Positions 1,162 to 20,880 of a stretch of 22,713 nt of DNA are shown here, one piece after another. Both the position numbers and the translations under genes were made by a program. The notes below the pieces were generated by a model. It was not told the DNA's origin and made no database searches. It was given only the letters and a program-made list of their open reading frames with translations. Positions within the stretch are counted from its first letter, which is position 1, and the number at the start of each line of letters is the position of its first letter. Source of the DNA: a virus; the IMG/VR virus record IMGVR_UViG_3300036766_000831, positions 1 to 22,713 of that record; one strand, given 5' to 3'.

Positions 1162-1172
1162 TTATAAATACT
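1162..1172 (-). promoter_or_regulatory. AGTATTTATA motif before the 72-aa gene
   Basis: AGTATTTATAA on the - strand, 13 nt before the ATG at 1148. A second, similar copy (CTGTATTTATAAAAAA) lies at about 1222-1207, just beyond the fibre stop. These belong to the recurrent intergenic motif discussed in the findings; their function is unknown. Confidence 0.5.
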
Positions 1173-1233
1173 AATAAAAAGATATTAATAGTAAAATCTT
1201 GACTTAATTTTTTATAAATACAGCTATTATTTT

Positions 1234-3453
1234 TTACAATAATTCGATTGTTCTTACATCATTACCTAACGTATTATCAGTGCCGCTTAATTGATAACTA
1301 GCTTCAAAAACTGCTGAATTTGCTGTATTTGCTGTACCTGCTGTCCCTCCACTATCAAAACTTGAAGCAGTAATATTAACCATATTTTTAGGGGTACCAG
1401 TTCCAACCAATCCCACTATAAACTTATGTTGGCTAATTTGTGAACTAGCACTTAAATTTTCAATTTGCGAATCTAGTCTATAAGTATATGTTCCAACACC
1501 AATATTTCCCGTAATAGCATCGTACAACGTTGTACCACCAAATTTTATTCGAACTCGTATTGTTTGTGCCGAAGTGCCAACTATTATACTGCCAATATTT
1601 GTAATTCTTAAAACACCTTGAGACCCCATTACACCAGCAGGTACAGTAAAACTCATTACTGTATGTTCAGCACTACTATTTACGTAAGTATCTTGTGTTA
1701 TTTGATTATACAATACTTTTAAATGGTTTTGAACCCTGCCACTAATAGTCACAGAACCTGTGTTAACATTATTAAAATATCCAACCCCTATTCTATTCCC
1801 GCTGCCCCCAACGTTTGTGGTACTATCTCCATTCGTTGCTATTGGCAGTAATCCATAGGTGTCATCAAATTTCCAAGTACTAGTACATACATATCCTGTA
1901 AATACAGGATTTGAAATTGGTGCTGCTCCTGTAATATCTGCAACGGCTAATTTAGTTCCATTTATTTTATAACAACTACCAGCACTGATATTCATATTTC
2001 CAACCAGACATAAATTTACTGAACCACCCGTGAATTGACCTGTTAGTTGTGTTGGTGCAATTTTAACATCACAACTGCCAATACTGCCAATACCCCAATA
2101 ATTTGCAATTGCCCAATTACCTATATATTGAGCACGGTTATATGATTGAGTAATAAAACTTCCTGTATTATGTATGTCTCCGTAAACATCAACTTTATAG
2201 CTTGGTGTAACGCCAAAACCAACGTTACCTGTAAACACTGGACTATTTAATTTGGCGTAAGTACAAGCCAATGAACCACCTAAACAAAAACTATTTAGTG
2301 CTGTTATGCCAGTACTTGCACACGTTGCATAATTACTGTTATTTGCAGTAGCTACTGTTTGAATACTAATATTTGCAGTTGTAATTATTTCTGCTGTAGA
2401 CGTTACATGCGCTGGTAATCCATCAGGATTATTATACCTGACAATACTCAAATTATTTGCTACGTTGCCCGCCAGTCCTACGTAACCACTGCCAGCAGTA
2501 TTAAAAACCAGTTGTGCTGTATTATCATATGTAGGAGTATAAATTCTGGTTGCACAAACAGCAGTACCACCAACAGCTAGAAAACAATTAGGCACACAAC
2601 CACAAAGAGCTAACGAATTATTAGCTGTACTGGCAACTGTTGCACAAGCTACTGTATCGCAAGTCTGATATAGTTTATACCAAGTACCCCACGTTGTATT
2701 TTGTCCGCTGCGATGCCAAATACTGCCATTATCCGTGAATCCTAATTGATGACTTTTTCCACCTGTCCAATCAGTTGTATTTCCATATTGTCTAAATGTC
2801 ATTTCACCAAAATATGTACCTCCATCGTTAAGACTTTCGCAAGTATTTGTTTTAAAATCATATGTTACACATTGGTTAATAGTTTGCGGTGTTGTAATTG
2901 TATTGCGGGTATCATTTACATAAAGATAATTGCTATTACCAGCGTTTGTTGCTACTATTGAGCAGCAAACACATTTTGAACTATCCGGTGTGTTGTCAAC
3001 ACTACATAAGCCTATCATACCCTTTGAGATTCCGCAAACAGTTCCTGTAAACACTGGACTATTTAATTTGGCGTAAGTACAAGCCAATGAACCACCTAAA
3101 CAAAAACTATTAAGTGCAGTTATTCCAGTATTTGCACAGACTGCATATGTAGCATTTGCAGCACTACCAGCTATTTGAGCATAACAAACACTTTTACACG
3201 CATCACTTGTATTATCAACTAGATTTAAGCCAACAGTAGTTTTTGTAATTCCACTAACACCACCAGCAAAACATATTCCAGTTAATATTTTTTGTGTTGT
3301 ACTAGCACTTAATTTCAGATAATTACTAAGGTCAGCACCACTGCTGCTGCTGCTGCCAATAAATCCAATAGTAGTACCGTTATTATTAGGATATATCCTG
3401 CCATTTCTCGCAATTGCAGGAACTTGAATATTATACATATTAAGCGTTGACAT
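1234..3453 (-). CDS. Cysteine-rich tail fibre protein
   Basis: 739 aa. It is the large last gene of the tail module, where receptor-binding fibres usually sit. The sequence is low-complexity and rich in Gly, Ser, Thr, Asn and Ala. The fibre-type motif NSPVFTG occurs twice and the variant SNPVFTG once, each after a stretch ending TYAKL or AAPI; this motif is common in modular phage fibres. A block of about 33 residues (TGITALNSFCLGGSLACTYA... through PVFTG) is duplicated and still partly identical in DNA. There are 26 cysteines, all within residues 1-523; the last 216 residues have none and probably form a separate C-terminal domain. A Ser run near residue 35 is encoded by AGC repeats. There is no signal peptide. 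Upstream lies a variant of the common motif (ATTATTTATAAAATAT). Host-binding specificity cannot be inferred. Confidence 0.75.
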   Translation of the reverse strand: MSTLNMYNIQVPAIARNGRIYPNNNGTTIGFIGSSSSSGADLSNYLKLSASTTQKILTGICFAGGVSGITKTTVGLNLVDNTSDACKSVCYAQIAGSAANATYAVCANTGITALNSFCLGGSLACTYAKLNSPVFTGTVCGISKGMIGLCSVDNTPDSSKCVCCSIVATNAGNSNYLYVNDTRNTITTPQTINQCVTYDFKTNTCESLNDGGTYFGEMTFRQYGNTTDWTGGKSHQLGFTDNGSIWHRSGQNTTWGTWYKLYQTCDTVACATVASTANNSLALCGCVPNCFLAVGGTAVCATRIYTPTYDNTAQLVFNTAGSGYVGLAGNVANNLSIVRYNNPDGLPAHVTSTAEIITTANISIQTVATANNSNYATCASTGITALNSFCLGGSLACTYAKLNSPVFTGNVGFGVTPSYKVDVYGDIHNTGSFITQSYNRAQYIGNWAIANYWGIGSIGSCDVKIAPTQLTGQFTGGSVNLCLVGNMNISAGSCYKINGTKLAVADITGAAPISNPVFTGYVCTSTWKFDDTYGLLPIATNGDSTTNVGGSGNRIGVGYFNNVNTGSVTISGRVQNHLKVLYNQITQDTYVNSSAEHTVMSFTVPAGVMGSQGVLRITNIGSIIVGTSAQTIRVRIKFGGTTLYDAITGNIGVGTYTYRLDSQIENLSASSQISQHKFIVGLVGTGTPKNMVNITASSFDSGGTAGTANTANSAVFEASYQLSGTDNTLGNDVRTIELL
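2228..2295 (-). repeat. 68-bp perfect direct repeat inside the fibre gene, copy A
   Basis: Identical over 68 bp to 3044-3111, in the same orientation and frame. It encodes the block around NSFCLGGSLACTYAKLNSPV. Divergence starts sharply outside the block. Confidence 0.9.
3044..3111 (-). repeat. 68-bp perfect direct repeat inside the fibre gene, copy B
   Basis: Partner of 2228-2295. Similarity continues beyond the perfect block at protein level (CANTGITALNSF versus CASTGITALNSF). Recombination between the copies would remove 816 bp, which is 272 codons, in frame. Confidence 0.9.
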
Positions 3454-3504
3454 TTTGATATTTTATAAATAATTAGTTGATATAATGATATTATTTAATA
3501 TATT

Positions 3505-5535
3505 TTATAAATAATTAGGTGTTAAATTATCACTTACGGTTTCAATAAGTACTAGGTTATTGGTATTCATTGAATAATCAATTTTAATTCCAAGTGGCAC
3601 AAGTTTCAAGCCTGACAAATAATTATTGTATGTTACATAACCAATTTGAAAATTTAAAATGTTGCTATCAACTGTTAATTTTATTCTGGGATTTTGATAA
3701 TTACTAACAACACTGTTTAATAATAATTCTTCCAATTTGGCAGTTATTCCCGCACGTGTATGACTTTTTAAATTATTTATATTATCTGTGATTGCACCCA
3801 TTTGAACAGGATAATCAAAACTATTTGATCCCTGAATGACTTCAATTTTTTGACCCTCATTATTATTTTTTGCATCTAAATAACTTATATATTCGGTATC
3901 ACTTGCACTCTGAACATTTCCATTTTTGTCACTGATTTCACAAGACAAACCATTTATTCTGATATCCTGCAAATTAGCGGTTTTATCAACACCGTTTTTA
4001 TCAGTAACTAGAAACGCCTGTAATACCTGTATGTCTAGGGGTGCAATGAGAATATAATTTAATGGCACAAGCACATAATCTACATTTTTTTGTAAGGTAT
4101 TGCTGTAACTCCTATTATTTATCCAAGTATCTGCTATTGTATCATTAATATTATCATTATAATAATCTAATTTTAGTGTCGTAATATTGGTCGTTGTTGC
4201 ACTTGCACCCCAAATATCTAGTTTAAACTGACTACCACCACAACGAATATTTAAATATATGCTGGCTTTTTGTAGGTTTGAATATGATAATTCACTGGGG
4301 TCACCCTCTTTTAATTTTGTGCGAAAATATGCACTCATACTTATTTTTAAAAAATATATTGGATTGTTTGTATATAAATTAGAAAGTAAAAAGGGTTTGT
4401 TTTTGAAATTAAAACCAACAAAACTAAAACTACTAACGGGTAAAAATTTAACATAAATAAAACTACTTGCAGTATTTAAATTACCTATGCCCTGTAAACT
4501 TCGAAAAGCTCCATAGCCACCAGTTACAATTGATTTGCTGGCATTCCAAGTATATTCATCCCAGCCATAATTGGCATCTGTATTTTTATGTGTTGTACTG
4601 CCTATATTAGTAAAATCACTTGCACTAGCAGAAAAATTATTTAATGTGCTTAAATTATAAGCACTGTATTTTAGTGTTTGTTTATTAATGGCTGGTACAA
4701 GTTCCAAATTTTGATTATCACTAGTAAAACCAATTGTTGAAAGATCACCCAAATTTGTATTAATACTAACTGGTTGAACATAGGCATAACTTGTACTGTT
4801 ATATTCTTTAAAAGTGCAGGGACTGCTTAAAATACTATTATAATCATAGATAACAATATTACCATTGGCTTGCATTATCATTGCTCCATATGGCTTCAGA
4901 ATTGCTTCAAGTACCTGTCTGCAAGTCATTGGCTTCCCGTCTTCATCATAAAAATTTTCTTGTACCACGTAAGATTTATGAAAAATTGTTTCTCCACTAT
5001 TAATAGTTAGTTGTGGAGACGTTGTTGACAGTGCAACAAGTATAGAATTATATGGAAGTCCTACTTTATTCAATATTATTTTTAACAGGTTCCATTGACT
5101 AATTTGACCACTGTATTTATTTCCACTGCCATCAACAAAAAGTAATCTATTCAAAAGTGCAAACCCATCCGTACCAGTAAATTTAACGGGGTAATTTTTT
5201 AAACTACCAAAGTCTTCAGTATAAGTTTCAGAGTCTAAATATCCCAGCCAGCTTGGATACTGACTGCTATTTTTTATTAAACGTATTTGATATTTTTGAA
5301 TTTCATTTGAATATAAGCCTATAAATTGTCTATCTGTTTCTGAAATTAAATTCATATCACAACCAGAACCTCTAACGGCTTCAAATTTTTTTGATTCAGG
5401 ATAATCCACAACAAAAGGTACTTGGTCGCTAGTTATTTGTGTTGCACCACTTACACCAGTATGAAGGATTTGAATTTCATAACTGTCATTATTCAAACTT
5501 TTAAATGTGTAAAAATATTTTTTTGTCCAAGTCAT
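3505..5535 (-). CDS. Tail hub/baseplate-like protein after the tape measure
   Basis: 676 aa. It has no catalytic motif I recognise. Its position between the tape measure and the fibre is that of the distal tail/tail-hub protein in siphoviruses. The N-terminal part contains a segment of the type FxGYLDSETYTEDFG...YPVKFTGTDGFALLNRLLF (about residues 95-135). I associate this segment with the large post-tape-measure structural protein of Bacteroidota phages. The rest is beta-rich and polar, with no membrane segment. The start ATG overlaps the tape measure stop (TAATG), so translation is probably coupled. The stop TAA lies inside a TTATTTATAA copy of the intergenic motif that precedes the fibre gene. 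Confidence 0.6.
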   Translation of the reverse strand: MTWTKKYFYTFKSLNNDSYEIQILHTGVSGATQITSDQVPFVVDYPESKKFEAVRGSGCDMNLISETDRQFIGLYSNEIQKYQIRLIKNSSQYPSWLGYLDSETYTEDFGSLKNYPVKFTGTDGFALLNRLLFVDGSGNKYSGQISQWNLLKIILNKVGLPYNSILVALSTTSPQLTINSGETIFHKSYVVQENFYDEDGKPMTCRQVLEAILKPYGAMIMQANGNIVIYDYNSILSSPCTFKEYNSTSYAYVQPVSINTNLGDLSTIGFTSDNQNLELVPAINKQTLKYSAYNLSTLNNFSASASDFTNIGSTTHKNTDANYGWDEYTWNASKSIVTGGYGAFRSLQGIGNLNTASSFIYVKFLPVSSFSFVGFNFKNKPFLLSNLYTNNPIYFLKISMSAYFRTKLKEGDPSELSYSNLQKASIYLNIRCGGSQFKLDIWGASATTTNITTLKLDYYNDNINDTIADTWINNRSYSNTLQKNVDYVLVPLNYILIAPLDIQVLQAFLVTDKNGVDKTANLQDIRINGLSCEISDKNGNVQSASDTEYISYLDAKNNNEGQKIEVIQGSNSFDYPVQMGAITDNINNLKSHTRAGITAKLEELLLNSVVSNYQNPRIKLTVDSNILNFQIGYVTYNNYLSGLKLVPLGIKIDYSMNTNNLVLIETVSDNLTPNYL

Positions 5536-7187
5536 TATGATATTCTATTAAGTCTATTGTTATAATTATTTAATACACCCACAAGTTTAGTACCTTCAAT
5601 TTCAAATCTTACTTGTCCACCAGAACCACCTAATAAATTTTTACTTTGTGAATTGCTGAATACTTGTGAACCACTTGGTAAATTAACTAATTCAGCACCC
5701 CTTTCACCAACTATAGATAAACCACCAGCAGAAATACCACCACCAGCAAATTTAGGTAAGCTGGCAAAAAGTGCTGTTACTGCTGTTATTCCTGCTGCTG
5801 CTAATGCTATACCAGCTAATCCACCAGTTGCAGCACTTGCAGGACTTTTAAAAGCGTTTATTATAGCTGTTGCCAATGATTCAGCTAATAAGCCAGTAAT
5901 TACTTTACGTATTCCATCTAACATAGACATTATCATATCTTTGAAACTAAATTTACCACCTTCAGCCATTGCTATAAATGCATCACCAATGCCATTAATA
6001 GCCTTTTCAAAATCTTTCGCAAGTAATTTACTTTCTTTAAAATTTGCTTTGATATTATCAAACCAAGAATTACTCTTTGTTTTATCTCCTAAATCTTTAT
6101 TAATATCTGGTTTTGCTAAATTTGATACTTCAGTATCTAAACTAATTGGTTTACCAGTTGTTTTAATTTCTTTCTGTTCCTGTTTTCCTCTGTTATTAGC
6201 TTCTTTTTGTGCTGTTTCAATAGCTAGTAAATTTTCTAATTCTAAATCTAGTTTTTCTTTAACTAAATCTCGTTGCTTAAGAACTTCAGCAGTAATTGTT
6301 TTTTGCTTTTTGTGGGTTGCAGATATTGCGTCACTATATTCAGCTTCAATTAAATTTCTCTTAGCAATTAAACCATTATATTCTTTAGCTAAAACATCAT
6401 TATGTATTACATCAAACAAACCACCATGACTTAATAAATATATTTTTTCTTCTAAATAAATATCAGCCAATTTCATATCACGAATTTCTTTCATTTTTAC
6501 CTGATATTCTTTAAGATATTTTAGTCTTTGTTGTGCTGTATAGCTTTCTGAATCTGTTGCTTTTTCCCATAATTGAGACGCTTCACGACTTAAGCTAGCT
6601 AATTCTCTTTCTTCAGTAACTTGTTCTTTTCGTTGTGCTTTAAGTGCTTCACTTAATTCTCTTGCACGGTCAATATTATTTTTAAGTCTGTCACCAAAAC
6701 TAGAAAATGCTTTACCGGCACTTTCAGCAGCACCCGAAAAATCACCCTTAAATAATTTAATAATTGCTTCACCAAGCATTTTCAAAGTACCAAGAATTGT
6801 TTTAATAATTGCACCTACAAAATTTATTGCTTTGGTAAAAATATCTGTACCCTCATTTGTTTTTTTAAACCATGTTATTAAAGATATAATAGCTGTAATG
6901 ATTGCAAATAAAGGTATAGCTATCATTGCAGTTTTTAACAGTCCTAGTACCGGTAACATATTTTTTGCAGCACCCGCAACACCACCAAAACCACCAGTAA
7001 TTTTTTGAAGCCCAGAAAATTGTTCCATTATCGGTGCAGCAAGGGTTTCAAAACTGCTTTTAATACTTGCAGTTGCGTTTTGTGCAGCATCTTTTAATAT
7101 TTTTGTATCCTTTTTAGCTTGGTCAATACCTTTAGTAAAACCAGCAGCATTAAGAGTAAGTGTTGTTAATAATGAAAAATTACCCAT
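5535..7187 (-). CDS. Tail tape measure protein
   Basis: 550 aa. It sets tail length and is ejected with the DNA. It follows the G/GT chaperone pair, the standard synteny. The N-terminus NAAGFTKGIDQAKKDTKILKD is a typical tape-measure start. A hydrophobic region at about residues 70-150 (LGLLKTAMIAIPLFAIITAI and following) is followed by a long charged coiled coil (about 165-350). The C-terminus has an Ala-rich hydrophobic stretch, then GGGISAGGLSIVGERGAELV and LPSGSQVFSN, which matches the conserved tape-measure end. At the usual figure of about 0.15 nm per residue the tail would be near 80 nm, on the short side. The start at 7187 is preceded by AGTATTTATATAAAAATATT. The stop overlaps the next start by one base. 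Confidence 0.88.
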   Translation of the reverse strand: MGNFSLLTTLTLNAAGFTKGIDQAKKDTKILKDAAQNATASIKSSFETLAAPIMEQFSGLQKITGGFGGVAGAAKNMLPVLGLLKTAMIAIPLFAIITAIISLITWFKKTNEGTDIFTKAINFVGAIIKTILGTLKMLGEAIIKLFKGDFSGAAESAGKAFSSFGDRLKNNIDRARELSEALKAQRKEQVTEERELASLSREASQLWEKATDSESYTAQQRLKYLKEYQVKMKEIRDMKLADIYLEEKIYLLSHGGLFDVIHNDVLAKEYNGLIAKRNLIEAEYSDAISATHKKQKTITAEVLKQRDLVKEKLDLELENLLAIETAQKEANNRGKQEQKEIKTTGKPISLDTEVSNLAKPDINKDLGDKTKSNSWFDNIKANFKESKLLAKDFEKAINGIGDAFIAMAEGGKFSFKDMIMSMLDGIRKVITGLLAESLATAIINAFKSPASAATGGLAGIALAAAGITAVTALFASLPKFAGGGISAGGLSIVGERGAELVNLPSGSQVFSNSQSKNLLGGSGGQVRFEIEGTKLVGVLNNYNNRLNRIS

Positions 7188-7198
7188 ATAATATTTTT

Positions 7199-7209
7199 AT
7201 ATAAATACT
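7199..7209 (-). promoter_or_regulatory. AGTATTTATA motif before the tape measure gene
   Basis: AGTATTTATATAAAAATATT on the - strand, ending three bases before the ATG. The same 20-mer precedes the tail chaperone gene, so this extended version is conserved between two genes. Confidence 0.55.
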
Positions 7210-7220: not shown

Positions 7221-7837
7221 TTATTCAAGTTTGTCAGCTATAGATAAAGCATATTTTAACACTTCTTTTTTCTGTTGTTCCAGTTGTTCAGGTGTTAAAT
7301 CTTCGTGTTCAATTTCATCCCATTTAAATTTAATAATATCCTGCGGTTTTGATATTTTTGAAAAACAACTGGCTTGAATATATGCAATAAATCTTACCTG
7401 TTCCCAAGTATTTTTATAATTAATATTATAAGCATTTAATAAAGATTCCAATTGAATTGAATCCAATTCATCTAAAAAATATTCAGGTGATATATTGCAG
7501 TTTATAACAACAATACCAAATAATTCTTTAATACTTATACTTTTTTCAGTGCTTTTTTTTTGGGTAAATCTTTAGCTTCTGATTGTAAATAATCACTAAA
7601 ATTTGCTAGTGATTTCTGATTATTATCTAATAAATCAATAAATTCATCAAAGCTGTAGATAAATGTTTCTTTATTACATGCCTTAAGAATACAATAAAAC
7701 AATGTTAATAAATCATTAGTTGTTTCTTTCATTTCATTAGCACTTCTACTGGTCATTTCTTCAAATAACATAAGGCTTCGAAATGTTTGTTTAATTAAAA
7801 ATTCTTGTTCGTTAAATTTGATTTTAATTTCATTCAT
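7221..7837 (-). CDS. Tail assembly chaperone GT, predicted -1 frameshift product
   Basis: This is the predicted long form of the chaperone. Residues 1-95 are shared with the short form. A -1 slip on A AAA AAA (7559-7553) then leads into a frame that is open for 110 more codons to the TAA at 7221, giving about 205 aa. The extension begins STEKSISIKELFGIVVIN and contains NTWEQVRFIAYIQA...KPQDIIKFKWDE, which resembles the T domain that bridges the chaperone to the tape measure. The extension has no ATG start of its own; the first possible internal initiator is a TTG at 7466. The frame is uninterrupted from the slip site onwards. The position just before the tape measure is the classical one for this recoding. 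Confidence 0.8.
7535..7837 (-). CDS. Tail assembly chaperone G (short form)
   Basis: 100 aa. The start is chosen at the ATG at 7837 (MNEIKIKFNEQEF); the frame extends a few codons further only by way of a TTG. It binds the tape measure protein during tail assembly and is not expected in the virion. It is acidic to neutral and helical, and ends KDLPKKKALKKV, where the Lys codons form a nine-A slippery run. The genes before it (major tail protein) and after it (tape measure) make the assignment firm despite little sequence signature. An AGTATTTATATAAAAATATT motif lies directly upstream. Confidence 0.78.
   Translation of the reverse strand: MNEIKIKFNEQEFLIKQTFRSLMLFEEMTSRSANEMKETTNDLLTLFYCILKACNKETFIYSFDEFIDLLDNNQKSLANFSDYLQSEAKDLPKKKALKKV
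7553..7561 (-). promoter_or_regulatory. Programmed -1 frameshift slippery site
   Basis: Nine consecutive A on the - strand. In the zero frame they read AAA AAA AAA after CCC, so the heptamer A AAA AAA is in the correct register for simultaneous -1 slippage, with GCA downstream. The -1 frame is open onwards and the zero frame stops five codons later (TAA 7537-7535). I see no obvious downstream stem-loop; A-runs can be efficient without one. Confidence 0.78.
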
Positions 7838-7850
7838 ATAAATATTTTTA

Positions 7851-7860
7851 TATAAATACT
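7851..7860 (-). promoter_or_regulatory. AGTATTTATA motif before the chaperone gene
   Basis: AGTATTTATATAAAAATATT then TAT before the ATG at 7837. It is identical over 20 bases to the element before the tape measure gene. Confidence 0.55.
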
Positions 7861-7950
7861 TCAAAAATTTGAAAAGGATAAAAAAATAATGGTTGAACAG
7901 TATGTACTATCCAACCATAACTATAAAACTAAATAAACCGAACTTAAAAA

Positions 7951-8400: not shown

Positions 8401-8437
8401 ATTAATATTTTTTTAAATTTTCTTATTAAATTATTTT

Positions 8438-8449
8438 CTTATAAATACT
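8438..8449 (-). promoter_or_regulatory. AGTATTTATA motif before the major tail gene
   Basis: AGTATTTATAAG followed by AAAATAA on the - strand, about 37 nt from the ATG at 8400. This spacing is longer than at most other copies, which argues against a simple ribosome-binding role. Confidence 0.45.
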
Positions 8450-10001: not shown

Positions 10002-10018
10002 TTTTTTATATAAATACT
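10002..10018 (-). promoter_or_regulatory. AGTATTTATA motif before the connector gene
   Basis: AGTATTTATATAAAAAAG then AAT before the ATG at 9997. It lies just downstream of the capsid terminator, so here the element precedes the first gene of a possibly separate transcript. Confidence 0.55.
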
Positions 10019-10027: not shown

Positions 10028-10052
10028 AAAAAGAGGTATTAAACCTCTTTTT
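10028..10052 (-). terminator. Intrinsic terminator after the capsid gene
   Basis: AAAAAGAGGT and ACCTCTTTTT form a 10-bp stem with a five-base loop. On the - strand seven T follow, and on the + strand five T. It lies about 40 bp past the capsid stop and could uncouple the abundant capsid message from the tail genes. Confidence 0.78.
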
Positions 10053-11400: not shown

Positions 11401-11418
11401 AAATTTATTATAAATACT
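11401..11418 (-). promoter_or_regulatory. AGTATTTATA motif before the capsid gene
   Basis: AGTATTTATAATAAATTT on the - strand, then TACAAT before the ATG at 11394. Confidence 0.55.
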
Positions 11419-12091: not shown

Positions 12092-12107
12092 TTTTTTATA
12101 AATACAT
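12092..12107 (-). promoter_or_regulatory. GTATTTATA motif before the protease gene
   Basis: ATGTATTTATAAAAAAG on the - strand. It starts a few bases after the portal stop and ends about 8 nt before the protease ATG. Confidence 0.5.
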
Positions 12108-13367: not shown

Positions 13368-13383
13368 TTTTTCATAAATACTT
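13368..13383 (-). promoter_or_regulatory. AGTATTTAT motif before the portal gene
   Basis: AAGTATTTATGAAAAAG on the - strand, ending 5 nt before the ATG. The usual TATA end is TATG here. Confidence 0.5.
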
Positions 13384-13414: not shown

Positions 13415-15031
13415 TTAGAAAATACGGTTTGAATATTTAGGCATACTTAACCAGCAATTCAAAGCTGTTAGTATGGATATTACACCGTCAATTTTATCCT
13501 TGCTCAGTGCCTTGTCAGGCTTAACGCAACCAGTGGAATTGTGCCTTAATTCGCTATTTGCGAAACACCAGCGAGTTATTTTATTATTATCTAAAATGAT
13601 TTGTGAAGCAAGCATTAAACGCTCAAACTCTAATGTACCAGCAGTAAATTTATCTATAGCTTGTGGTACATGTGTGCAACGATATCCACGACTTTTTAAT
13701 TCTGCTATAAACTGACTTGCAAAATGGTCGTCATAACCAATATTGGTTATATTCAGTTTATTTTCTTTTCTAATTTTTTCAATATCTTCTATAATTGTTG
13801 GATAGTCCACGTGATTACCTGCTTGCAGTGTTATATAACCTTGCTTGTGCCAATTTTGATATGTTGTTTGGTCAATACGACTATTGATATTAGTAAGCGG
13901 GAGGTAATATTTATTTATATAGTGAAAATTCCCATCAATTTCAAACTGAAACGTTATACTTGTAAGGTCTGAAACACTGCTCAAATCGATTCCTAATATA
14001 CAATCCATGCCCTGATAATAGTCAAAACTGAGGTTTTTGCTGGCGTTTAGAATGTATGAATCTGGAATCCATGTCTTAAGTACGTCACACCACGTGTTAA
14101 AATTCCACGTTTTTATTTGAGTTTCAAGACTTTTATTATTATCCACTGATTGTACAGCTTTTCTAAGATTCTCTACAGGTATTAAAAAATTTAAAGACGG
14201 GTTAGACTTAATCCAAACGTCTTCATTTCTAAAATTATCTTCAGGGTCTAACGTGTAAATCAATACCAATGTATTTTCACTTTTTTTTAATCCTGCCAGT
14301 ATTTCTTCACCCGTGTGATATAATTCATAAAATGGCAATTGCTTATTAAATCCAGCGGTGCTACTAACAAAAAAAAATTTATTAATTAAATCACTTTGAG
14401 CCGTTTGTAAATTTTGGTACATATCCCAATTTCGGAATTCAAAAAATTCATCAAGGTAAACCGCCAGTGGCCCTAGTCCTGCCTTACTTTTCGACTCATT
14501 TGAAATGCATTTTAAAACATTATTTCGATATTCAATAGTATTATGTTTTCGACTTATATTTTCTTCTTCTGAGTCAAGATTTATACAAAAATTTGTGATT
14601 GCTTTAAAAATAACATCGCTGGCTTGTTCTCTTGAATTGCTTGCCACAACAGATAAATTACCAGTGCCTTCAAAAATTGTTATGTACAAAAGTGTGCCAA
14701 CAATTAAAGCGGTTTTGCCATTTTTCTTAGAAACGCTCAGGAATATATCAGTAAAACGTCTGGTATTACTGGTTTTCCAATACCAGCCAAAAATTTGACA
14801 AATAAAAAATTTCTCCCAAGGGAGAAGGTCAAAGTATTTGCCAGCGTGCCTGTCTTTTGTATGCTGTAAGCAGCTAAAAAAATTGAATACATGCTGTACT
14901 TTATCAGTATTAAAGTAAAAAAGTGGATTTTTTTGGTCATTTTCAAACCTCTGAACCGCCTGTTTTAACTGCGAACAGCTTATTATTTCACCATTTTTGA
15001 CCTGTTTAATATAATTATATACGTCTTGCAT
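13415..15031 (-). CDS. terL: Terminase large subunit
   Basis: 538 aa. This is the Terminase_1 (HK97-like) ATPase-nuclease that pumps and cuts DNA. The N-terminal region has FFSCLQHTKDRHAGKYFDLLPWEKFFICQIFGW. The Walker A-like loop is SVSKKNGKTALIVG (about residue 104). Walker B is LAVYLDEFFEFR (about 187), followed by the coupling motif FVSSTAGFN. The RNase H-like nuclease starts at GIDLSSVSDLTSI (first Asp about residue 345), with IGYDDHFA and the last acidic DKIDGVISIL. All motifs look intact. The start follows the TerS stop after 7 nt. Confidence 0.93.
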   Translation of the reverse strand: MQDVYNYIKQVKNGEIISCSQLKQAVQRFENDQKNPLFYFNTDKVQHVFNFFSCLQHTKDRHAGKYFDLLPWEKFFICQIFGWYWKTSNTRRFTDIFLSVSKKNGKTALIVGTLLYITIFEGTGNLSVVASNSREQASDVIFKAITNFCINLDSEEENISRKHNTIEYRNNVLKCISNESKSKAGLGPLAVYLDEFFEFRNWDMYQNLQTAQSDLINKFFFVSSTAGFNKQLPFYELYHTGEEILAGLKKSENTLVLIYTLDPEDNFRNEDVWIKSNPSLNFLIPVENLRKAVQSVDNNKSLETQIKTWNFNTWCDVLKTWIPDSYILNASKNLSFDYYQGMDCILGIDLSSVSDLTSITFQFEIDGNFHYINKYYLPLTNINSRIDQTTYQNWHKQGYITLQAGNHVDYPTIIEDIEKIRKENKLNITNIGYDDHFASQFIAELKSRGYRCTHVPQAIDKFTAGTLEFERLMLASQIILDNNKITRWCFANSELRHNSTGCVKPDKALSKDKIDGVISILTALNCWLSMPKYSNRIF

Positions 15032-15038
15032 CTAATAT

Positions 15039-15398
15039 TTAGGCACATTTTTTTATCATTTTTTCAAATGGTGTACTACTTTTTTTATTATTTTTTGCTG
15101 TCTTTATGCTTTGTCGGCTCTTGGGATTGAGATATAATGAATCAATCAGTTTAAAAAGTTGCTTTTGTAATTCCAGTTGCACATTTACATATGGATTTAT
15201 TTTGAATTGCTTGTTCTCATTAAAGTCTAGTGATTCTAACACCGTACCCATACGATTTACTTCTTTACATGCATTTAAGTACTGTTCGTAAGTATTACCA
15301 AGTATTAGCAATGTCATTTCATCCTTACTCTTGTAAAGATTTTCTGCCTGTAAATAATCACGGATTTCAGAGATTAATATTTTTGTTGTTTTCTTCAC
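15039..15398 (-). CDS. terS: Terminase small subunit (P27-like)
   Basis: 119 aa with a GTG start at 15398. The helical protein has YEQYLNACKEVNRMGTVLE, then INPYVNVQLELQKQLFKLIDSLYLNPKSRQSI, the pattern of P27-family small terminases: a Y/N-x-A segment, N-P, and a closing L-x-P-x-S-R. It recognises phage DNA and recruits TerL. It is the first gene of the packaging module and is followed directly by TerL. The C-terminal tail is basic. Confidence 0.82.
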   Translation of the reverse strand: MKKTTKILISEIRDYLQAENLYKSKDEMTLLILGNTYEQYLNACKEVNRMGTVLESLDFNENKQFKINPYVNVQLELQKQLFKLIDSLYLNPKSRQSIKTAKNNKKSSTPFEKMIKKCA

Positions 15399-15413
15399 GA
15401 TTACTAATTTTTA

Positions 15414-15755
15414 TTATATTTTCTTATTTTCTTCATTCATCATAAATACATAATCACTGCAAATCGTGTTTGTTAATTTTACTATATTACAATTTGGTAC
15501 GCTGGTATAAATTTTTTTTAGTTCCCGCATTAAGATTGGACTAAAAAGAAATTCCACTTTTATTTTTTTCTCGTGGGTGTCACCATATTCAAAAATCCAT
15601 CTATTTTTATAAAGGCGTTTCTTTTTTATGTTGTTCAAGATGACACCGTAAGAAATATTAAATTCATCACTGCACATATTGATATTATCAAAAATAATTC
15701 TGGTATTATTTAAGGTGTCATTGACAATTATAAATTCAGTAATGTTTTTTTTCAT
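15414..15755 (-). CDS. Unknown protein, 113 aa
   Basis: I do not recognise it. It is a soluble, basic protein beginning MKKNITEFIIVNDTLNNTRIIFDNI. The middle (SDEFNISYGVILNNIKKKRLYKNRWIFEYGD) resembles the DNA-binding modules of phage homing-type proteins (NUMOD-like, with a K-x-x-x-x-Y-K-N-x-W-I/K-F ending). That likeness is weak. The start overlaps the stop of the upstream 92-aa gene (ATGA-type overlap), indicating translational coupling. It sits just before terS. Confidence 0.6.
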   Translation of the reverse strand: MKKNITEFIIVNDTLNNTRIIFDNINMCSDEFNISYGVILNNIKKKRLYKNRWIFEYGDTHEKKIKVEFLFSPILMRELKKIYTSVPNCNIVKLTNTICSDYVFMMNEENKKI

Positions 15756-16030
15756 TTAGATATTTTTAGTTTTTCTCTTTCAGCATCTAATATTTTTTTT
15801 ACTTCTACATTAGCACTCTTAAGTGATTGAGAAAATACTTTAATAACATTTTCTGTTATTAGTTTATCTACGTCATCAATATTATTTGATAATAACAAAT
15901 ATTCGTCAACGTCCATAGTACACCATATTTTGAAAGGAATTTTAATACTTTTATTACGGGTCTCTATGTTATCATTTACGTAATCGTAATGTCTAATTTT
16001 TAATTCTGGTATTAATTTTTCTTCGTTCAT
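15752..16030 (-). CDS. Unknown protein, 92 aa
   Basis: No family recognised. It is acidic/basic mixed with no membrane segment. It has an ordered N-terminus (PELKIRHYDYVNDNIETRNKSIKIPFKIW) and a helical second half (DDVDKLITENVIKVFSQSLKSANVEVKKILDAERE). It ends in TGA overlapping the next ATG, which shows that TGA works as a stop in this phage. It is part of the small-gene run leading into terS. Confidence 0.55.
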   Translation of the reverse strand: MNEEKLIPELKIRHYDYVNDNIETRNKSIKIPFKIWCTMDVDEYLLLSNNIDDVDKLITENVIKVFSQSLKSANVEVKKILDAEREKLKISK

Positions 16031-16129
16031 TTTCTTAATTTTTATTACTTAATATTATTTTTTAGGTTTTTTACTTTAGAAAAAATAAGATTTGCGCAAG
16101 CGAAGACAGGGCGAGGTTTCAAGGGTTGT

Positions 16130-16405
16130 TCAGAGTTCCTGACCTATACCCCCCTTGGTATCACTGTCTTTCAGTTGATTGTGAATAGATGTGCGGTTGT
16201 TGGCATTACGTGTATAATTATATCTTATCTTACCTGCTAGCATGTCTTCTTTTCTCCTAATAATTTCAAGTACTTCAGATTTTAATTTCTTCTTATACTC
16301 ATTGATGTCAAAGTGTGTAAGGTCTGCACGTTCTGCATTATCAACAGCATTACGGTTGTCTATCATTTCTTTCTGTTCTTCCGGTGTTGGTTGTGTTGTG
16401 TCCAT
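16130..16405 (-). CDS. Unknown protein, 91 aa
   Basis: No family recognised. It is highly charged and probably helical, with a Pro/Gln-rich start (MDTTQPTPEEQKEMIDNRN), a central KKKLKSEVLEIIRRKEDMLAG, and an Asn-rich, Gly-rich end. It stops at TGA. About 100 bp of non-coding sequence follows (16031-16129), including a more GC-rich patch near 16093-16115. Upstream is an AT-only stretch with TTATAATTTA repeats. Confidence 0.5.
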   Translation of the reverse strand: MDTTQPTPEEQKEMIDNRNAVDNAERADLTHFDINEYKKKLKSEVLEIIRRKEDMLAGKIRYNYTRNANNRTSIHNQLKDSDTKGGIGQEL

Positions 16406-16461
16406 TGTGTTATTAGTATTTTATAATTTATTATAATTATTTATAATTTATTTTATAGGTA

Positions 16462-16974
16462 TTACCAAAACATTTCGGGTATACTACTTACAACGCCATG
16501 CTGTTTTAAATGGCACTGTAGGCAAAGGCTTTCCATGTTGGTAATATCTGTTGCTAACTGCATTCTATTGTTATGGTCTTTGCCTGTCATAATGGGTACT
16601 ACGTGATGAATCTCGTGAACAGGCACTATTACGCCTAGCTTCTCACAGCGTTCGCATATGGGGTTAATTCTTATTTTATATTGTCTGGCTTTGCGGTACT
16701 TGTTGTAATAAATTTGGTCGTTGTTCATTGCTCGTTTTTTGTTATTACTTTGATAAATGTTCAGGTAGTACAAATAAATATATTCTAGTAATTCCAACAT
16801 GCTAATATTATTTTGCTCGCATATTGTCTTCAATTGATAATAAATATTATATTCTATTCCAATTCTTTTTTTTATTCCGGCTTTTCTGCTTCTATTATAA
16901 GCATGTGTTTCTTTATTGAGGTCATATGCATCGAACAGATAATCCAGTAATACCATATTTTCTATGTGATTCAT
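16462..16974 (-). CDS. HNH endonuclease
   Basis: 170 aa from the ATG at 16974 (MNHIENMVLL), which follows the upstream stop by one base; a longer frame to 17034 overlaps that gene and is less likely. The C-terminal half carries the HNH fold: CERCEKLG (first CxxC), HEIHHVVPI (catalytic HH), an Asn-containing HNNRMQLATDITNMESLC, and CLQCHLKQHG (second CxxC, final His). HNH proteins near terminases often aid DNA packaging or cleavage; homing nicking activity is the alternative. The N-terminal ~37 residues recur in a chimeric remnant at 17399-17750. An eight-A run encodes GIKKR. Confidence 0.85.
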   Translation of the reverse strand: MNHIENMVLLDYLFDAYDLNKETHAYNRSRKAGIKKRIGIEYNIYYQLKTICEQNNISMLELLEYIYLYYLNIYQSNNKKRAMNNDQIYYNKYRKARQYKIRINPICERCEKLGVIVPVHEIHHVVPIMTGKDHNNRMQLATDITNMESLCLQCHLKQHGVVSSIPEMFW

Positions 16975-16975
16975 T

Positions 16976-17167
16976 TTATTTCGGCTGGTATTTTTGAATG
17001 TAATAACCGTTATTTTTACTGTATTCAATGGCATAAATTATACGGTCTGACTTAATGATAAATTGACCAGCATTGACATATAAAATGCCTTGTATGTCCT
17101 GCTGTACTTGACGTAATTCGTCATATGCTGTCATTAGGTCGGGGTAAAATTCTTGTTCTTTTTTCAT
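16976..17167 (-). CDS. Unknown small protein, 63 aa
   Basis: The sequence is MKKEQEFYPDLMTAYDELRQ, continuing to GQFIIKSDRIIYAIEYSKNNGYYIQKYQPK. It is soluble, with a helical first half and beta-like second half. No known family. The tight junction with the HNH gene (stop, one base, ATG) supports it as a real gene in the same operon. Confidence 0.55.
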   Translation of the reverse strand: MKKEQEFYPDLMTAYDELRQVQQDIQGILYVNAGQFIIKSDRIIYAIEYSKNNGYYIQKYQPK

Positions 17168-17197
17168 AGTATCTGTTATTAACTTTTGTTGATTTTC

Positions 17198-17365
17198 TTA
17201 TTTGATATTGGCTACGTAATTTTCTACATATGTAGTTTTTACTAGCTCTGCGTGATTTCCAGCCTTACGCACTTCATTATTTTTTTCAATTTCTTTCAAG
17301 TTTTCCTGATTAGACTTTTTGAATTTTTCTATAAATTCTTTGACTTTGTTTGCTTGGGTTTCCAT
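17198..17365 (-). CDS. Unknown small protein, 55 aa
   Basis: A short frame from the ATG at 17365 to the TAA at 17198. It is highly charged and probably a single long helix (QANKVKEFIEKFKKSNQ, then LKEIEKNNEVRKAGNHAELV), ending YVENYVANIK. It fits between the chimeric remnant and the 63-aa gene with short gaps. An AGTATTTATAATAAAAAA motif lies 34 nt upstream at 17399-17409. No function can be assigned. Confidence 0.5.
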   Translation of the reverse strand: METQANKVKEFIEKFKKSNQENLKEIEKNNEVRKAGNHAELVKTTYVENYVANIK

Positions 17366-17398
17366 GTTGGTTAAAAATTATTAGCTGCTTATTTTTTA

Positions 17399-17750
17399 TT
17401 ATAAATACTCTTGGTTTTCCGAAAATCCTGAAGACCGATTAATAAAATCATAATATCTACAGTTTAGTTGTTCCTGCCTGTAGTCCTTCATTAAGTCACA
17501 GTAGTTGGGGTTAAAACAAAGACTGGCAAACCATTTATTTACTACTGCACTGTCACCATAGGTTGTATATTTTTGAGCAATGCAGAAAAAATATAGTACC
17601 TCAGATGTAATAGCCTTGAATCGATTTGTTACATTTCTTTTTTTTTATTCCAGTTCGTTTGCATCGATTGTATGCGTGGCTCACTTTGTTCAAATCATAC
17701 AAATCAAAGACGTAATCCAACAGCACCATATTTTCAATTAAGTCATTCAT
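17399..17750 (-). pseudogene. Frameshifted chimera: HNH N-terminus joined to nuclease C-terminus
   Basis: From the ATG at 17750, which overlaps the stop of the upstream nuclease gene, the frame reads MNDLIENMVLLDYVFDLYDL, then NKVSHAYNRCKRTGIKK. This closely matches the first 37 residues of the HNH protein at 16974. After a nine-A run (17638-17646) the frame stops within about ten codons (TGA). In the +1 frame the sequence continues NRFKAITSEVLYFFC...NKWFASLCF...DLMKDYRQ to the TAA at 17399. That part matches residues 122-187 of the neighbouring nuclease-like protein. The HNH gene has eight A at the same place, so one inserted A explains the break. The HNH catalytic half and the nuclease catalytic half are both missing. 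Confidence 0.8.
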
Positions 17751-18306
17751 AATGATTTAAATATTCTGCGTATCTCCAATTTTGTAGTTTCTGCCTATAA
17801 TCTTGCATCAGGTCACCATAATCGTGGTTATAAATTAGAGATGCAAACCACTTGTTAACTATCTTTGAGTCTCCGTAAGTGCAGTACTTTTGAGGCACGC
17901 AGAAAAAATAAAGTACTTCAGATGTAATAATTTTGAATCTATTTGATAAATTAAATTCAATGTAGCCATCGCAAAAATAAATCGCATAGAGGCACTGAAT
18001 AGCATTTCCACTATAGGTCCAAATATCTCGGAAATGTTTTAGCTTTTTTTGTTCAATCCATGTTGAACCACTATACTTGGTAATACTTTCAGTTCTTTCT
18101 TTTAATTCTATGCGGTAAATTAAAGCCACACCATCATTTGTTGAAAATCCGGTGCAATCAATATCGTGAGATGAGTCGATATTACACGTTGTTATTTTTG
18201 CAAACCTATTTTGATTTTCTTTTATCCACCTGTCACGAATTTTATTTTCTTGCCTGTTAATTCGGTCTTGTGTAATTCGGTCTTGTTTTTCTATTGTTGT
18301 TGTCAT
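17743..18306 (-). CDS. Possible PD-(D/E)XK nuclease-like protein
   Basis: 187 aa. The segment HDIDCTGFSTNDGVALIYRIELKER (about residues 47-71) has the spacing and hydrophobic strand of a PD-(D/E)XK core: an Asp, about 18 residues, then E-x-K in IELKER. This suggests a nuclease or resolvase, though only one motif supports it. The N-terminus is very polar and helical (EKQDRITQDRINRQENKIRDRW). The C-terminal third is Tyr/Phe/Cys-rich and is the part duplicated in the chimera just downstream. It ends in TGA overlapping the chimera start by 8 nt. Upstream, a GTATTTATTG variant motif lies at 18342-18333. Alternative: an uncharacterised phage-specific protein. Confidence 0.5.
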   Translation of the reverse strand: MTTTIEKQDRITQDRINRQENKIRDRWIKENQNRFAKITTCNIDSSHDIDCTGFSTNDGVALIYRIELKERTESITKYSGSTWIEQKKLKHFRDIWTYSGNAIQCLYAIYFCDGYIEFNLSNRFKIITSEVLYFFCVPQKYCTYGDSKIVNKWFASLIYNHDYGDLMQDYRQKLQNWRYAEYLNHYE

Positions 18307-18400
18307 TATTCTAATGTCTTTATTAATATTTTCAATAAATACAAAATCGAACAGGCAAAAGAACTGATTTTGACATATTTATTTTTACATAAGGTGTTGA

Positions 18401-18460
18401 ATTATAACTATTTATAAAATATTATAATTAATTATAACTATTTATAAAATATTATAATAC
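18401..18460. repeat. 30-bp AT-only tandem repeat, two copies
   Basis: Units at 18401-18430 and 18431-18460 differ only in the last two bases. Each begins ATTATAACTATTTATAAAAT, so it contains a TATTTATAAAA core in the + orientation, opposite to the genes. It could be a protein-binding or DNA-unwinding element upstream of the nuclease operon. Confidence 0.75.
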
Positions 18461-18574
18461 CACAGATATTTATTTTTGATTGAGGCATAAAAATGGCGGG
18501 CGGCTTCTATCAACATCTGGCTTCGCCAATCAGTTGGGTAATATGATCATTTTAAGGTGGTATTTTAAAAGATA

Positions 18575-18603
18575 ATGGCCACTAAGCTATAACTAGTGGC
18601 CAT
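18575..18603. terminator. Strong hairpin after the rep gene
   Basis: ATGGCCACTA and TAGTGGCCAT form a perfect 10-bp stem with a nine-base loop, about 60 bp past the rep stop. On the - strand only TATCTTTT follows, a weak T-tract, so intrinsic termination is plausible but not certain. Confidence 0.5.
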
Positions 18604-18664
18604 ATCAAATAAAATTGAAAATAGAGGGTTTAGATTGATTATTTAAATTGATTAATTAAATTAA

Positions 18665-19894
18665 TTATTGTTGAGGTATAACTTCAAAAGATTCTTGTTT
18701 AGCTTTTTCAAGATTATTTTTAACTACTTCTTTAAATTTGATATTTTTTTGAATTAGTTCTATGACTTTATTAATATCTATTATTTTCAATATTAATGGA
18801 TTTTCATAAATCCATTTATTTAAATCAGCTTTGGATATTGTATTGGTTATTTTATTTTGAAAAATTATAAAAAAATAAATATATAAAACTCCTTCAAATT
18901 GATTTGGTATTAATCTTGTTTTAGGATATTGGTTGAAGTATTCTATGTAGAGATAATTTACATAGTTTTGTTGATTAGCTTGACTAAATAATTGAGAAGG
19001 TGTTTTGAGATATTCATTTAGAAGTTCATTAATTTGGATTGTAGTAAAACTTTCAATTTTATTTTGTTGGGTTTTATCTTCAATTTTTAATCCATCAATT
19101 TTGGAATTATTATTTTCAATCTTATCTTGTTGGATTTTATCTTCAATTTTTATACCCTCTTCTTTTTTAACATCAGAAGCTAAAATTATATCTGGAAATT
19201 CAACCTGATTTTTTGTAGTGTCTATAAAACTATTAGATTTACAAATATTATTTTTATCTAAATTATAATTAACACTTGAAATATCTTTATTAGTCTTATT
19301 ACTATTAGTCTTATTAGATGACATTTTATTGCTATATGCCTCATCACTATTGGTGTTTGCTGAATTTTCAAGTGAAGTATGTTTGACTTCACTTACTGAA
19401 GTATGTTTGACTTCACTTTCACTTAAATCATTTTCAAGTGAAGTATGTTTGACTTCACTAAGTGAAGTATGTTTGACTTCACTAAAATCATTTATTTTAT
19501 TGCTATATGCCTCATCACTATTGGTGTTTGCTGAATTTTCACGATATGCTTTTACCTTGGAAATTGATTTATTAATTTTATCTATCTTGAAATCTGAAAC
19601 ATTAAGGCATAAATTCAAAGCATATTTATTGTTAATGAATACCAGAATTTTTCTCTTTTCAAGGCTTGAAAAGATTTTATCAATATTTTTTTTATGAGTG
19701 CCAAACTTTTCAGCAATTCGATTTCTGTTGTATTTGAAACTAGAACCTTTTTGTTTTATATATAAAATTAATCGCAGTTCATTGTAGGTGAGGTAATGCA
19801 TCAATTCGTTAATAAAAGAGTTTGGAATCATTGTAAATTCTTGTTTTGTTTCTGTTGTTTTACTAATAGTAAAATCAAACTTATTAACTTTCAT
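18665..19894 (-). CDS. Replication initiator with winged-helix domain and internal origin
   Basis: 409 aa. Residues about 20-95 (FTMIPNSFINELMHYLTYNELRLILYIKQKG...NRIAEKFGTHKKNIDKIFSSLEKRKIL) form a helix-turn-helix/winged-helix domain of the phage/plasmid replication type: a typical IPN start, then an N-E-L-R-L segment and a recognition helix. Residues 119-190 are repetitive: SEVKHTS occurs four times, framed by two copies of ENSANTNSDEAYSNK. At DNA level these are four palindromic iterons, so the gene probably contains its own origin as lambda O does. The rest is a polar, repeat-containing linker (KIEDKIQQDKIE type) and a helical C-terminal domain (about 280-405). It starts three bases after the stop of the upstream gene. 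Confidence 0.72.
   Translation of the reverse strand: MKVNKFDFTISKTTETKQEFTMIPNSFINELMHYLTYNELRLILYIKQKGSSFKYNRNRIAEKFGTHKKNIDKIFSSLEKRKILVFINNKYALNLCLNVSDFKIDKINKSISKVKAYRENSANTNSDEAYSNKINDFSEVKHTSLSEVKHTSLENDLSESEVKHTSVSEVKHTSLENSANTNSDEAYSNKMSSNKTNSNKTNKDISSVNYNLDKNNICKSNSFIDTTKNQVEFPDIILASDVKKEEGIKIEDKIQQDKIENNNSKIDGLKIEDKTQQNKIESFTTIQINELLNEYLKTPSQLFSQANQQNYVNYLYIEYFNQYPKTRLIPNQFEGVLYIYFFIIFQNKITNTISKADLNKWIYENPLILKIIDINKVIELIQKNIKFKEVVKNNLEKAKQESFEVIPQQ
19323..19370 (-). repeat. 48-bp direct repeat flanking the iterons, copy A
   Basis: Identical over 48 bp to 19494-19541, in the same orientation and frame, and bordering the iteron cluster. It encodes ENSANTNSDEAYSNK. Confidence 0.9.
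19371..19483 (-). repeat. Four 23-bp palindromic iterons, candidate replication origin
   Basis: AGTGAAGT-N7-ACTTCACT occurs at 19371-19393, 19395-19417 (one mismatch, ACTG), 19437-19459 and 19461-19483, always with the spacer ATGTTTG. The start-to-start spacing is 24, 42 and 24 bp, so all copies are in the same codon frame. The arrangement (dyad iterons inside the initiator gene) matches the lambda/lambdoid origin design. Confidence 0.8.
19494..19541 (-). repeat. 48-bp direct repeat flanking the iterons, copy B
   Basis: Partner of 19323-19370. Together they bracket the four iterons, so the whole 19323-19541 block looks as if it was built by nested duplication. Confidence 0.9.
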
Positions 19895-19897
19895 AAT

Positions 19898-20086
19898 TTA
19901 ACCTTTTTTATTTTCATTTATTTTTTGCTGTTTATTTTTTTCAACATAATCATTGTATAATAATTCATATTCTTTAAGGTGTAAAGAAATAAAATTATCT
20001 TCCGTTTCTGTAACTGGTACACCAAGAAAAAAAAAGTTATTTAATATCCTCATTTTTTCATCAGTACTTAAATTTCTAATTATCAT
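19898..20086 (-). CDS. Unknown small protein, 62 aa
   Basis: The start is chosen at the ATG at 20086 (MIIRNLSTDEKMRILNNFFF), one base after the stop of the ribbon-helix-helix gene; a longer frame to 20113 would overlap it. It is charged, ending DYVEKNKQQKINENKKG. No family recognised. It lies between the ribbon-helix-helix protein and the replication initiator in what looks like a single operon. Confidence 0.55.
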   Translation of the reverse strand: MIIRNLSTDEKMRILNNFFFLGVPVTETEDNFISLHLKEYELLYNDYVEKNKQQKINENKKG

Positions 20087-20087
20087 T

Positions 20088-20297
20088 TTACTTACTTTCT
20101 TCTTTACTTTCATTCTTATTTTTTTCTTCTGCTCTTTTAAGTTCTATTTGAAGTTGTGCATTATTTAGTATTAAATGTCCAATTACATCACTAATACTTA
20201 CATTATATGCATCTGCAATAAATCTTATTTGTTGCTCTTTTTCTGCTGATACTCTTACTATCAGTGCTTTTCTTTTTCTACTAATTTTTTCAATCAT
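20088..20297 (-). CDS. Ribbon-helix-helix DNA-binding protein
   Basis: 69 aa. KALIVRVSAEKEQQIRFIADAYNVSISDVIGHLIL has the beta-strand/helix/helix pattern of the RHH/CopG-Arc class: alternating hydrophobics in the strand, then a helix with QIRFIADAYNV, then S-x-S-D-V in the second helix. The C-terminus is a charged helix. Such proteins act as dimeric repressors or as replication/mobilisation accessories. It is the only obvious candidate regulator in the window besides the integrase, and it lies directly upstream of the initiator gene. Confidence 0.65.
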   Translation of the reverse strand: MIEKISRKRKALIVRVSAEKEQQIRFIADAYNVSISDVIGHLILNNAQLQIELKRAEEKNKNESKEESK

Positions 20298-20312
20298 CGT
20301 CTTAAATTTTAA

Positions 20313-20540
20313 TTACTTACTGTTATTTTTATAGTTTTCATTTAAACTATCATAATTTTCACCTTCTCTTTTAATAAAATTTTCATATTTATTTACTAAA
20401 GAAACAAGTGTATTATATTGTTTATTAGTTAATTTTCTTCAATAAATATTATTTACAAAATCCTTTTCCCAAGAATTAAGTTTATTTAATTTAATTAGTT
20501 TTACTGCATCTTCTTTGTACTGTTCTTCATTAGTTGTCAT
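20313..20540 (-). pseudogene. Small ORF interrupted by an in-frame TGA
   Basis: From the ATG at 20540 the frame reads MTTNEEQYKEDAVKLIKLNK, then LNSWEKDFVNNIY. It meets TGA at 20441-20439 (codon 34) and then continues as RKLTNKQYNTLVSLVNKYEN...NKNNS-type sequence to the TAA at 20313. The combined 75-codon frame has the WEKDFxxxI...LTxKQxxxL pattern seen in small phage replication-related proteins, and codon use looks alike on both sides. The TGA therefore looks like a recent nonsense change, a sequencing error or a read-through site. TGA is a normal stop elsewhere in this phage. Confidence 0.6.
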
Positions 20541-20665
20541 TGTCTTAATTTTTAAATTTTACTTTCTTATTTTTTTGTCCGGGGTTTCTTATTTTGTTCC
20601 TGACATAAATAAATACTACAAAGTTTTAAAAAAGACTCACTTTTTAGTTATTTATTTTCATATCA

Positions 20666-20691
20666 CAAATATATAATCAATTTTTTGCAAA
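20666..20691 (-). promoter_or_regulatory. Candidate early promoter with TAnnTTTG -7 box
   Basis: TATATTTG (20673-20666) matches the Bacteroidota -7 consensus TAnnTTTG exactly. TTTG at 20691-20688 is a possible -33 element, but the 14-nt gap is shorter than usual. It would transcribe the interrupted ORF, the RHH gene and rep. Confidence 0.4.
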
Positions 20692-20794
20692 GCCTAGACA
20701 TTTTATCTGGTTTTATGAAAATCAGATTTGCCAATAATAATAATCTGTTCAAGACCTTAAATTATAGATTTAATTAAAACAAGCCAATACAGGT

Positions 20795-20828
20795 AAAAAT
20801 AAAAGCAGAGTAATTCTGCTTTATTTTT
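20795..20828. terminator. Bidirectional terminator
   Basis: AGCAGA and TCTGCT with loop GTAAT form the stem, extended by A/T pairs. T-rich runs follow on both strands (TTTATTTTTG on +, TTTTATTTTT on -). It separates the early operon from the sequences to its right. Confidence 0.65.
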
Positions 20829-20840
20829 GTTTTTTGCTAA

Positions 20841-20860
20841 CTTGTCCAGTCTTGTCCAGT
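20841..20860 (+). repeat. 10-bp tandem repeat CTTGTCCAGT, two copies
   Basis: Two perfect copies, the second running into AGTATTTATA (20858-20867) on the + strand. It could be an operator or recombinase-binding pair; its function is unknown. Confidence 0.7.
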
Positions 20861-20880
20861 ATTTATAGTTACTAATAATA

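Follow-up and report, generated by a model that had tools for sequence, protein, structure and literature searches.

Stoperators of mycobacteriophage L5 are asymmetric, intergenic sites in one orientation at which a repressor stops transcription, and the late promoters of the satellite P4 are activated by P2. Late promoters of phage T4 consist of an eight-base box from -13 to -6 and an AT-rich start region, with no -35 element (PMC2988020). In cluster K mycobacteriophages, start-associated sequences form a short asymmetric repeat just before many start codons of one phage (PMC3203893). Bacteroidota do without Shine-Dalgarno sequences, and their promoters have the -7 consensus TAnnTTTG (PMC6847099).

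The DNA analysed here (the window), 22.7 kb long, is an entire IMG/VR virus record and represents a temperate siphophage with genes for integrase, replication, terminase, portal, protease, capsid, connectors, tail and fibre, nearly all on the minus strand. Its flanking host gene is at best 53% identical to genes among 395 Bacteroidota genomes, so that the host genus is not assignable. Scans of the window for RNA families and tRNAs gave no matches. An earlier note on this DNA had described a recurrent motif before start codons and knew of no described system of this form, a statement that was too strong, as T4 late promoters are a described form. Judging from the sequence, A-GTATTTAT-nnn-AAA is very probably the -10 box of a phage late promoter.

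Results

The recurrent motif proved to be real. GTATTTAT occurs 18 times in the window against 3.72 +/- 2.08 copies expected, a number reached in none of 100 shuffles, and 16 of the 18 copies lie on the minus (coding) strand. With up to one mismatch, AGTATTTATA was found 30 times (9.2 expected). The 60 nt upstream of curated window starts, where start codons were taken from simple ORF calls, contain 11 copies of GTATTTAT, and the best of 167 other permutations of its letters reached three in the same regions, these being the same site shifted by one. All 13 positions listed in the earlier note exist, with 12107 corrected to 12106. The repeat AGTATTTAT belongs to the longer unit given above: AAA stands at a fixed place after GTATTTAT in 11 of the 12 intergenic minus-strand copies of the window and in none of the four clearly intragenic ones (8224, 8894, 11477, 15442). 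The copies at 20617 (minus) and 20858 (plus), although present as claimed, are probably not functional, because they are without AAA and neither precedes a real long gene. The plus-strand stretch at 20858-20956 carries AGTATTTATA without AAA, followed by a 25-codon ORF that ends in a strong terminator hairpin with eight T, and is possibly a small RNA or peptide unit.

Seven putative late promoter boxes, all on the minus strand, precede head and tail genes: portal (13368-13382, AGTATTTAT-gaa-AAA, with orthologous copies in the relatives L003 and L004), prohead protease (12092-12106, where the first letter is T and not A), major capsid (11404-11418), head-tail adaptor Ad1 (10004-10018), major tail protein (8435-8449), the gene starting at 7837 (7846-7860) and tape measure (7195-7209), all seven being placed by motif counts and alignment of orthologous sites. 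Motif counts also place four minus-strand boxes elsewhere: a pair before the holin-like gene (930-1148) at 1158-1172 and, distally, 1208-1222, one 35 nt before the gene starting at 17365 (17395-17409), and one 28 nt before the gene starting at 18306 (18329-18343). The fibre gene is preceded on the same strand by the variant TTATTTAT twice, as the earlier note had seen, at 3465-3472 and, distally, at 3507-3514; the L003 site orthologous to the former (19639) reads GTATTTAT and lies 4 nt before its ATG. Where genes overlap or abut the motif is absent, as had been observed, and L003 and L004 are without it at the same overlapping genes. The minus-strand box TATATTTG at 20673-20666 is of the host type, matching the TAnnTTTG consensus (PMC6847099), and probably serves as promoter of the early operon.

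Further repeats were observed in the window. The replication gene (a weak Phage_rep_O match) contains, at 19370-19485, about five near-palindromic 24-bp units AAGTGAAGTATGTTTGACTTCACT in tandem, which are probably origin iterons like those of lambda O. At 871-935, in the interval that separates the holin-like gene from the small membrane protein gene after it, the 13-bp sequence GTTCATATTATAA stands in five perfect tandem copies, and a perfect 30-bp direct repeat occurs in two copies (18400-18458) in the gap before the gene that starts at 18306. The ORF at 16462-17034 appears to encode a small ribbon-helix-helix-like protein fused to an HNH endonuclease, which are two separate genes in L003 and L004.

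Terminase relatives at 55-60% identity comprise L003, L004 and the fragments L005, L006 and L027; a terminase scan of genome contigs returned only distant relatives without the motif. These relatives keep the box before the genes for portal, protease, capsid, Ad1 connector and tail tube, before the one that comes next, and before tape measure. Across these seven orthologous sites in three phages, the core is identical in 168 of 168 pairwise comparisons and the AAA in 63 of 63, whereas the distal flanks, anchored on the box, show 0.32-0.33 identity. The earlier note would have given up the motif had relatives lost it within conserved flanks, and the opposite was found. In the pooled upstream regions of the siphophages GTATTTAT occurs in 23 of 47 (0 antisense, 0.0 in shuffles). 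TAnnTTTG occurs in none of the 47, in agreement with the view that the box is not this promoter element.

The host promoters themselves were compared in the gene-upstream regions of eight Bacteroidota genomes, of which 60-140 kb each was scanned. TAnnTTTG was found 116 times in sense and 27 times in antisense orientation (19 expected); TATTTAT was found 13 times sense and 23 times antisense (24 expected), so that the box, unlike TAnnTTTG, is not a common upstream motif in these genomes. Perhaps the box is read by an alternative sigma factor of the host that several phages exploit. This would explain why unrelated phages with and without gp55 use it, but it is unlikely given the lack of enrichment in these eight partial genomes, in which a small regulon could have been missed, and given that the T4-like users described below encode a sigma of their own.

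In window, L003 and L004 an intrinsic terminator follows both the capsid gene and the tail-tube gene, and the stem sequences are unrelated from phage to phage. In the window these terminators lie on the minus strand at 10028-10052 after the major capsid gene (folding energy -11.5 kcal/mol with z -3.6; L003 and L004 have equivalents) and at 7889-7918 after the major tail protein gene (-16.2 kcal/mol, z -5.8). As terminator-like sites over the whole window are not above chance (9 found, 7.4 expected), it is position, stem strength and recurrence in relatives that argue for these two. The order is the same in all three phages, namely capsid or tail-tube gene, terminator, box directly after, and next gene, and a box in this place should start a new transcript. 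The window capsid terminator ends about 10 nt before the Ad1 box, so that any -35 element would fall in its stem; terminator stems thus occupy the -35 region at MCP/Ad1. No -35 or -33 consensus was present upstream of the box in 35 siphophage copies or in 108 pooled ones. The A-rich, single-stranded context of the window boxes, with no predicted structure, would also suit an mRNA processing site at which a long late transcript is cut so that each gene receives its own 5' end. As cutting leaves unexplained both expression after strong terminators and, in T4-like contigs, the boxes that follow tRNA genes and terminators, we consider it very improbable.

Spacing to the start codon turned out to be tighter than the 3-40 nt of the earlier note. 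The box ends 11-15 nt before the ATG of portal, protease, MCP, Ad1, the post-MTP gene, TMP and the holin-like gene, and 28-40 nt before that of three other window genes. At loci selected by a gp55-like protein, gaps of 4-6 nt (n=23) and 11-17 nt (n=70) are separated by almost empty values of 7-10 nt (n=3), and this bimodal spacing is repeated in loci found by the pattern. In F. johnsoniae, promoter geometry runs from T-12 to G-5 (PMC6847099), which applied to the box puts the ATG at +1 for a gap of 5. The 4-6 nt class would thus fit leaderless transcripts and the 11-17 nt class leaders of 6-12 nt. Gaps of 11-17 nt are equally suited to a translation signal, and one could imagine that the box enhances translation starts on the mRNA, recognized by the ribosome or a phage RNA-binding protein in place of the Shine-Dalgarno sequence that Bacteroidota do not have (PMC6847099), a role proposed for the start-associated sequences of mycobacteriophages. 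The second class at 4-6 nt with almost nothing at 7-10, several copies at 28-65 nt from the ATG and the conserved terminators just upstream speak against this, as do the missing motif in hosts of the same phylum and the overlapping or abutting genes of the same operons, which manage without a box; such a role seems quite improbable to us.

The same box was found in T4-like phages of Bacteroidota. Among the matches listed in an IMG/VR scan with AGTATTTATnnnAAAATn(3-9)ATG were many large contigs whose terminase, portal, sheath, tube and baseplate genes are T4-like, and there the box precedes those genes, often after terminators or tRNA genes. Families matched by genes that follow the box are portal, head protease, baseplate, terminase and homing endonuclease; helicases, primase, dUTPase and nucleotide kinase are among the genes that have no box. 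Upstream of the genes of vB_FspM_immuto, a cultured Flavobacterium phage, no 7-mer is more enriched than TATTTAT, which stands before terL, portal, sheath, tube, hub and fibre genes. The same enrichment was seen in Microcystis phage Mel-JY01, whose Microcystis host label may be wrong. Mel-JY01 also carries an annotated ribosomal protein S21 gene (L151:22183-22410), which may bear on translation start choice in Bacteroidota. The box is absent from five other cultured Bacteroidota phages (11b, 6H, phi38:1, P12002L and Bacuni_F1). Frequencies of the box, first A, spacer and AAA are nearly the same, position by position, in the siphophages and in the G-type T4-like contigs, a set whose motif and AAA frequencies are inflated as it was collected by the motif pattern itself. 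Immuto, the siphophage relatives and the gp55-selected set are free of this bias, and in loci chosen only by their gp55-like protein TATTTAT occurs in 119 of 407 upstream regions (20 expected).

This distribution also bears on the idea of a repressor array like the L5 stoperators, in which a prophage repressor would bind the asymmetric sites and block stray transcription. One orientation, short intergenic sites and the small ribbon-helix-helix protein (20088-20297) of this temperate phage agree with such an array. The motif is, however, frequent in T4-like phages, in which a prophage repressor would not be expected, the early operon that holds the ribbon-helix-helix gene has no AAA-type box, and sites just after terminators are placed for expression, which leaves this reading with hardly any probability.

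T4 gp55 belongs to family phrog_234, which gave weak matches in five T4-like records, and the gp55-like protein of the immuto type is present in more than 500 IMG/VR stretches. Its fold was predicted with pLDDT 74, and nearly all of the 50 structural matches listed were sigma factors, with Z of 7.0-10.2 on a scale where helical folds easily reach middling values; alignments mostly covered sigma domain 2 (about 77-104 residues, 2.4-4.2 A). Because its profile found no sigma match among PDB sequences, the assignment draws on this fold and on the weak phrog_234 matches, from which immuto and related contigs are predicted to encode a gp55-like protein with a sigma domain-2 fold. In two T4-like phages a small gene with a box in front stands right after the gp55-like gene (L157:2063-2428 and L154:2221-2571), and its position suggests a gp33-like co-activator.

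In the window, L003 and L004, a search of 1108 ORFs for gp55 with phrog_234 and our own profiles at full sensitivity found nothing above noise, while positive controls were found. Two conserved siphophage proteins were considered as members of the gp55-like family and rejected, as profile comparison gave no match. A 113-aa protein is encoded on the minus strand just upstream of the small terminase gene (15414-15755) and conserved in window, L003 and L004. Its best PDB matches are the DNA-binding regions of homing endonucleases (1u3e, E 0.037; 1i3j, E 0.28), and it is predicted to have a helix-turn-helix of this type followed by a strand-helix-helix, ribbon-helix-helix-like end. It is a candidate regulator and, as reading factor of the box, a candidate and nothing more.

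Discussion

Of the four roles that had been offered for the motif, that of a phage-specific promoter element is strongly supported, and translation enhancer, processing site and stoperator fit less well because of the terminators just upstream, the 4-6 nt spacing class, the missing host motif and the sharing of the motif with T4-like sigma carriers. As a late promoter, the box would be read by host RNA polymerase under the direction of a specificity factor that is not the housekeeping sigma, and transcription would start about 6 nt after the last T of the box, within the AAA or at its end. Late genes, singly or in groups, would then be transcribed separately with a leader of about 10 A-rich nucleotides or none, the terminators after capsid and tail-tube genes would make the next promoter necessary, and the early genes would be driven by the host TAnnTTTG promoter. 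We infer all three central points, initiation at the box, the start nucleotide and a non-housekeeping reader, from sequence.

The reader in the siphophages could be a small, so far unrecognised protein of their own, an alternative sigma of the host, or the sigma that a T4-like phage brings in on co-infection. In the last case the siphophage would behave like a satellite, as P4 does towards P2. The near-identical box, first A, spacer and AAA frequencies in both phage groups, the lack of a recognised sigma in the siphophages, the absence of the box from the other Bacteroidota phages that were checked and the small genome, a 20-kb prophage in which no lysin gene was recognised and whose lysis genes may be diverged or missing, would agree with such dependence. 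Nevertheless it seems unlikely, as the phage has head, tail, packaging and replication genes of its own, the T4-like contigs had been picked out by this very pattern, and a diverged small factor could escape sequence searches. More broadly, we tentatively consider it possible that head and tail genes of a temperate siphophage without a late sigma factor stand under the late dialect of lytic T4-like phages and are fully expressed only on T4-like infection, which would make it a capsid-bearing parasite or counter-attacker, or else that the box is read by a minimal specificity factor of a new kind, with 15414-15755 as candidate and no kinship to known sigmas.

The box renders a late-gene map readable from sequence in a very large group of Bacteroidota phages, most of them uncultured, and transcript starts, leader lengths and late gene content become callable. 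It indicates T4-style late transcription in Bacteroidota with its own box and its own gp55-like sigma, a combination of which no description was found in open-access papers; a search of these for GTATTTAT or TATTTATA as phage late promoters likewise returned nothing relevant. How a small phage without a gp55-like sigma uses the same promoters is a testable question.

Compared with known systems, the box resembles the Bacteroidota housekeeping promoter TAnnTTTG (sigma-ABfr) in TAnnT and in its place relative to the presumed start, but has A for T, no terminal G and no -33 element. The start-associated sequences of cluster K contain a Shine-Dalgarno sequence and precede non-structural genes, whereas the window box precedes late structural genes and follows terminators; moreover, GTATTTAT has no G-rich core of the Shine-Dalgarno type, and instead of a constant 3-7 nt it stands 11-15 nt from most starts and 28-40 nt from others. 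While L5 stoperators stop transcription, the window sites appear to restart it after terminators. With P4 and P2 the possible likeness is that one element reads the late signals of another, a dependence that is hypothetical here, and in contrast to P4 the window phage has its own head and tail genes.

The closest likeness is to the T4 late promoters (TATAAATA, gp55/gp33/gp45), with which the box shares a single eight-base element without -35, many single copies before late structural genes on either strand, and use by phages with a gp55-type sigma, namely the T4-like users here. It differs in its fixed AAA and in its letters, GTATTTAT or, in phages like immuto, A/C-TATTTATA, which are close to the reverse complement of the T4 box; TATAAATA itself occurs in sense in two of 47 siphophage upstream regions (2.3 in shuffles). 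A phage-encoded sigma of the gp55 family, present in the T4-like box users and immuto, was not found in the window, L003 or L004. Taken together, the small temperate siphophage appears from its sequence to use a Bacteroidota dialect of the T4 late promoter, and what is new here is the spelling of the box and its presence in a siphophage without gp55.
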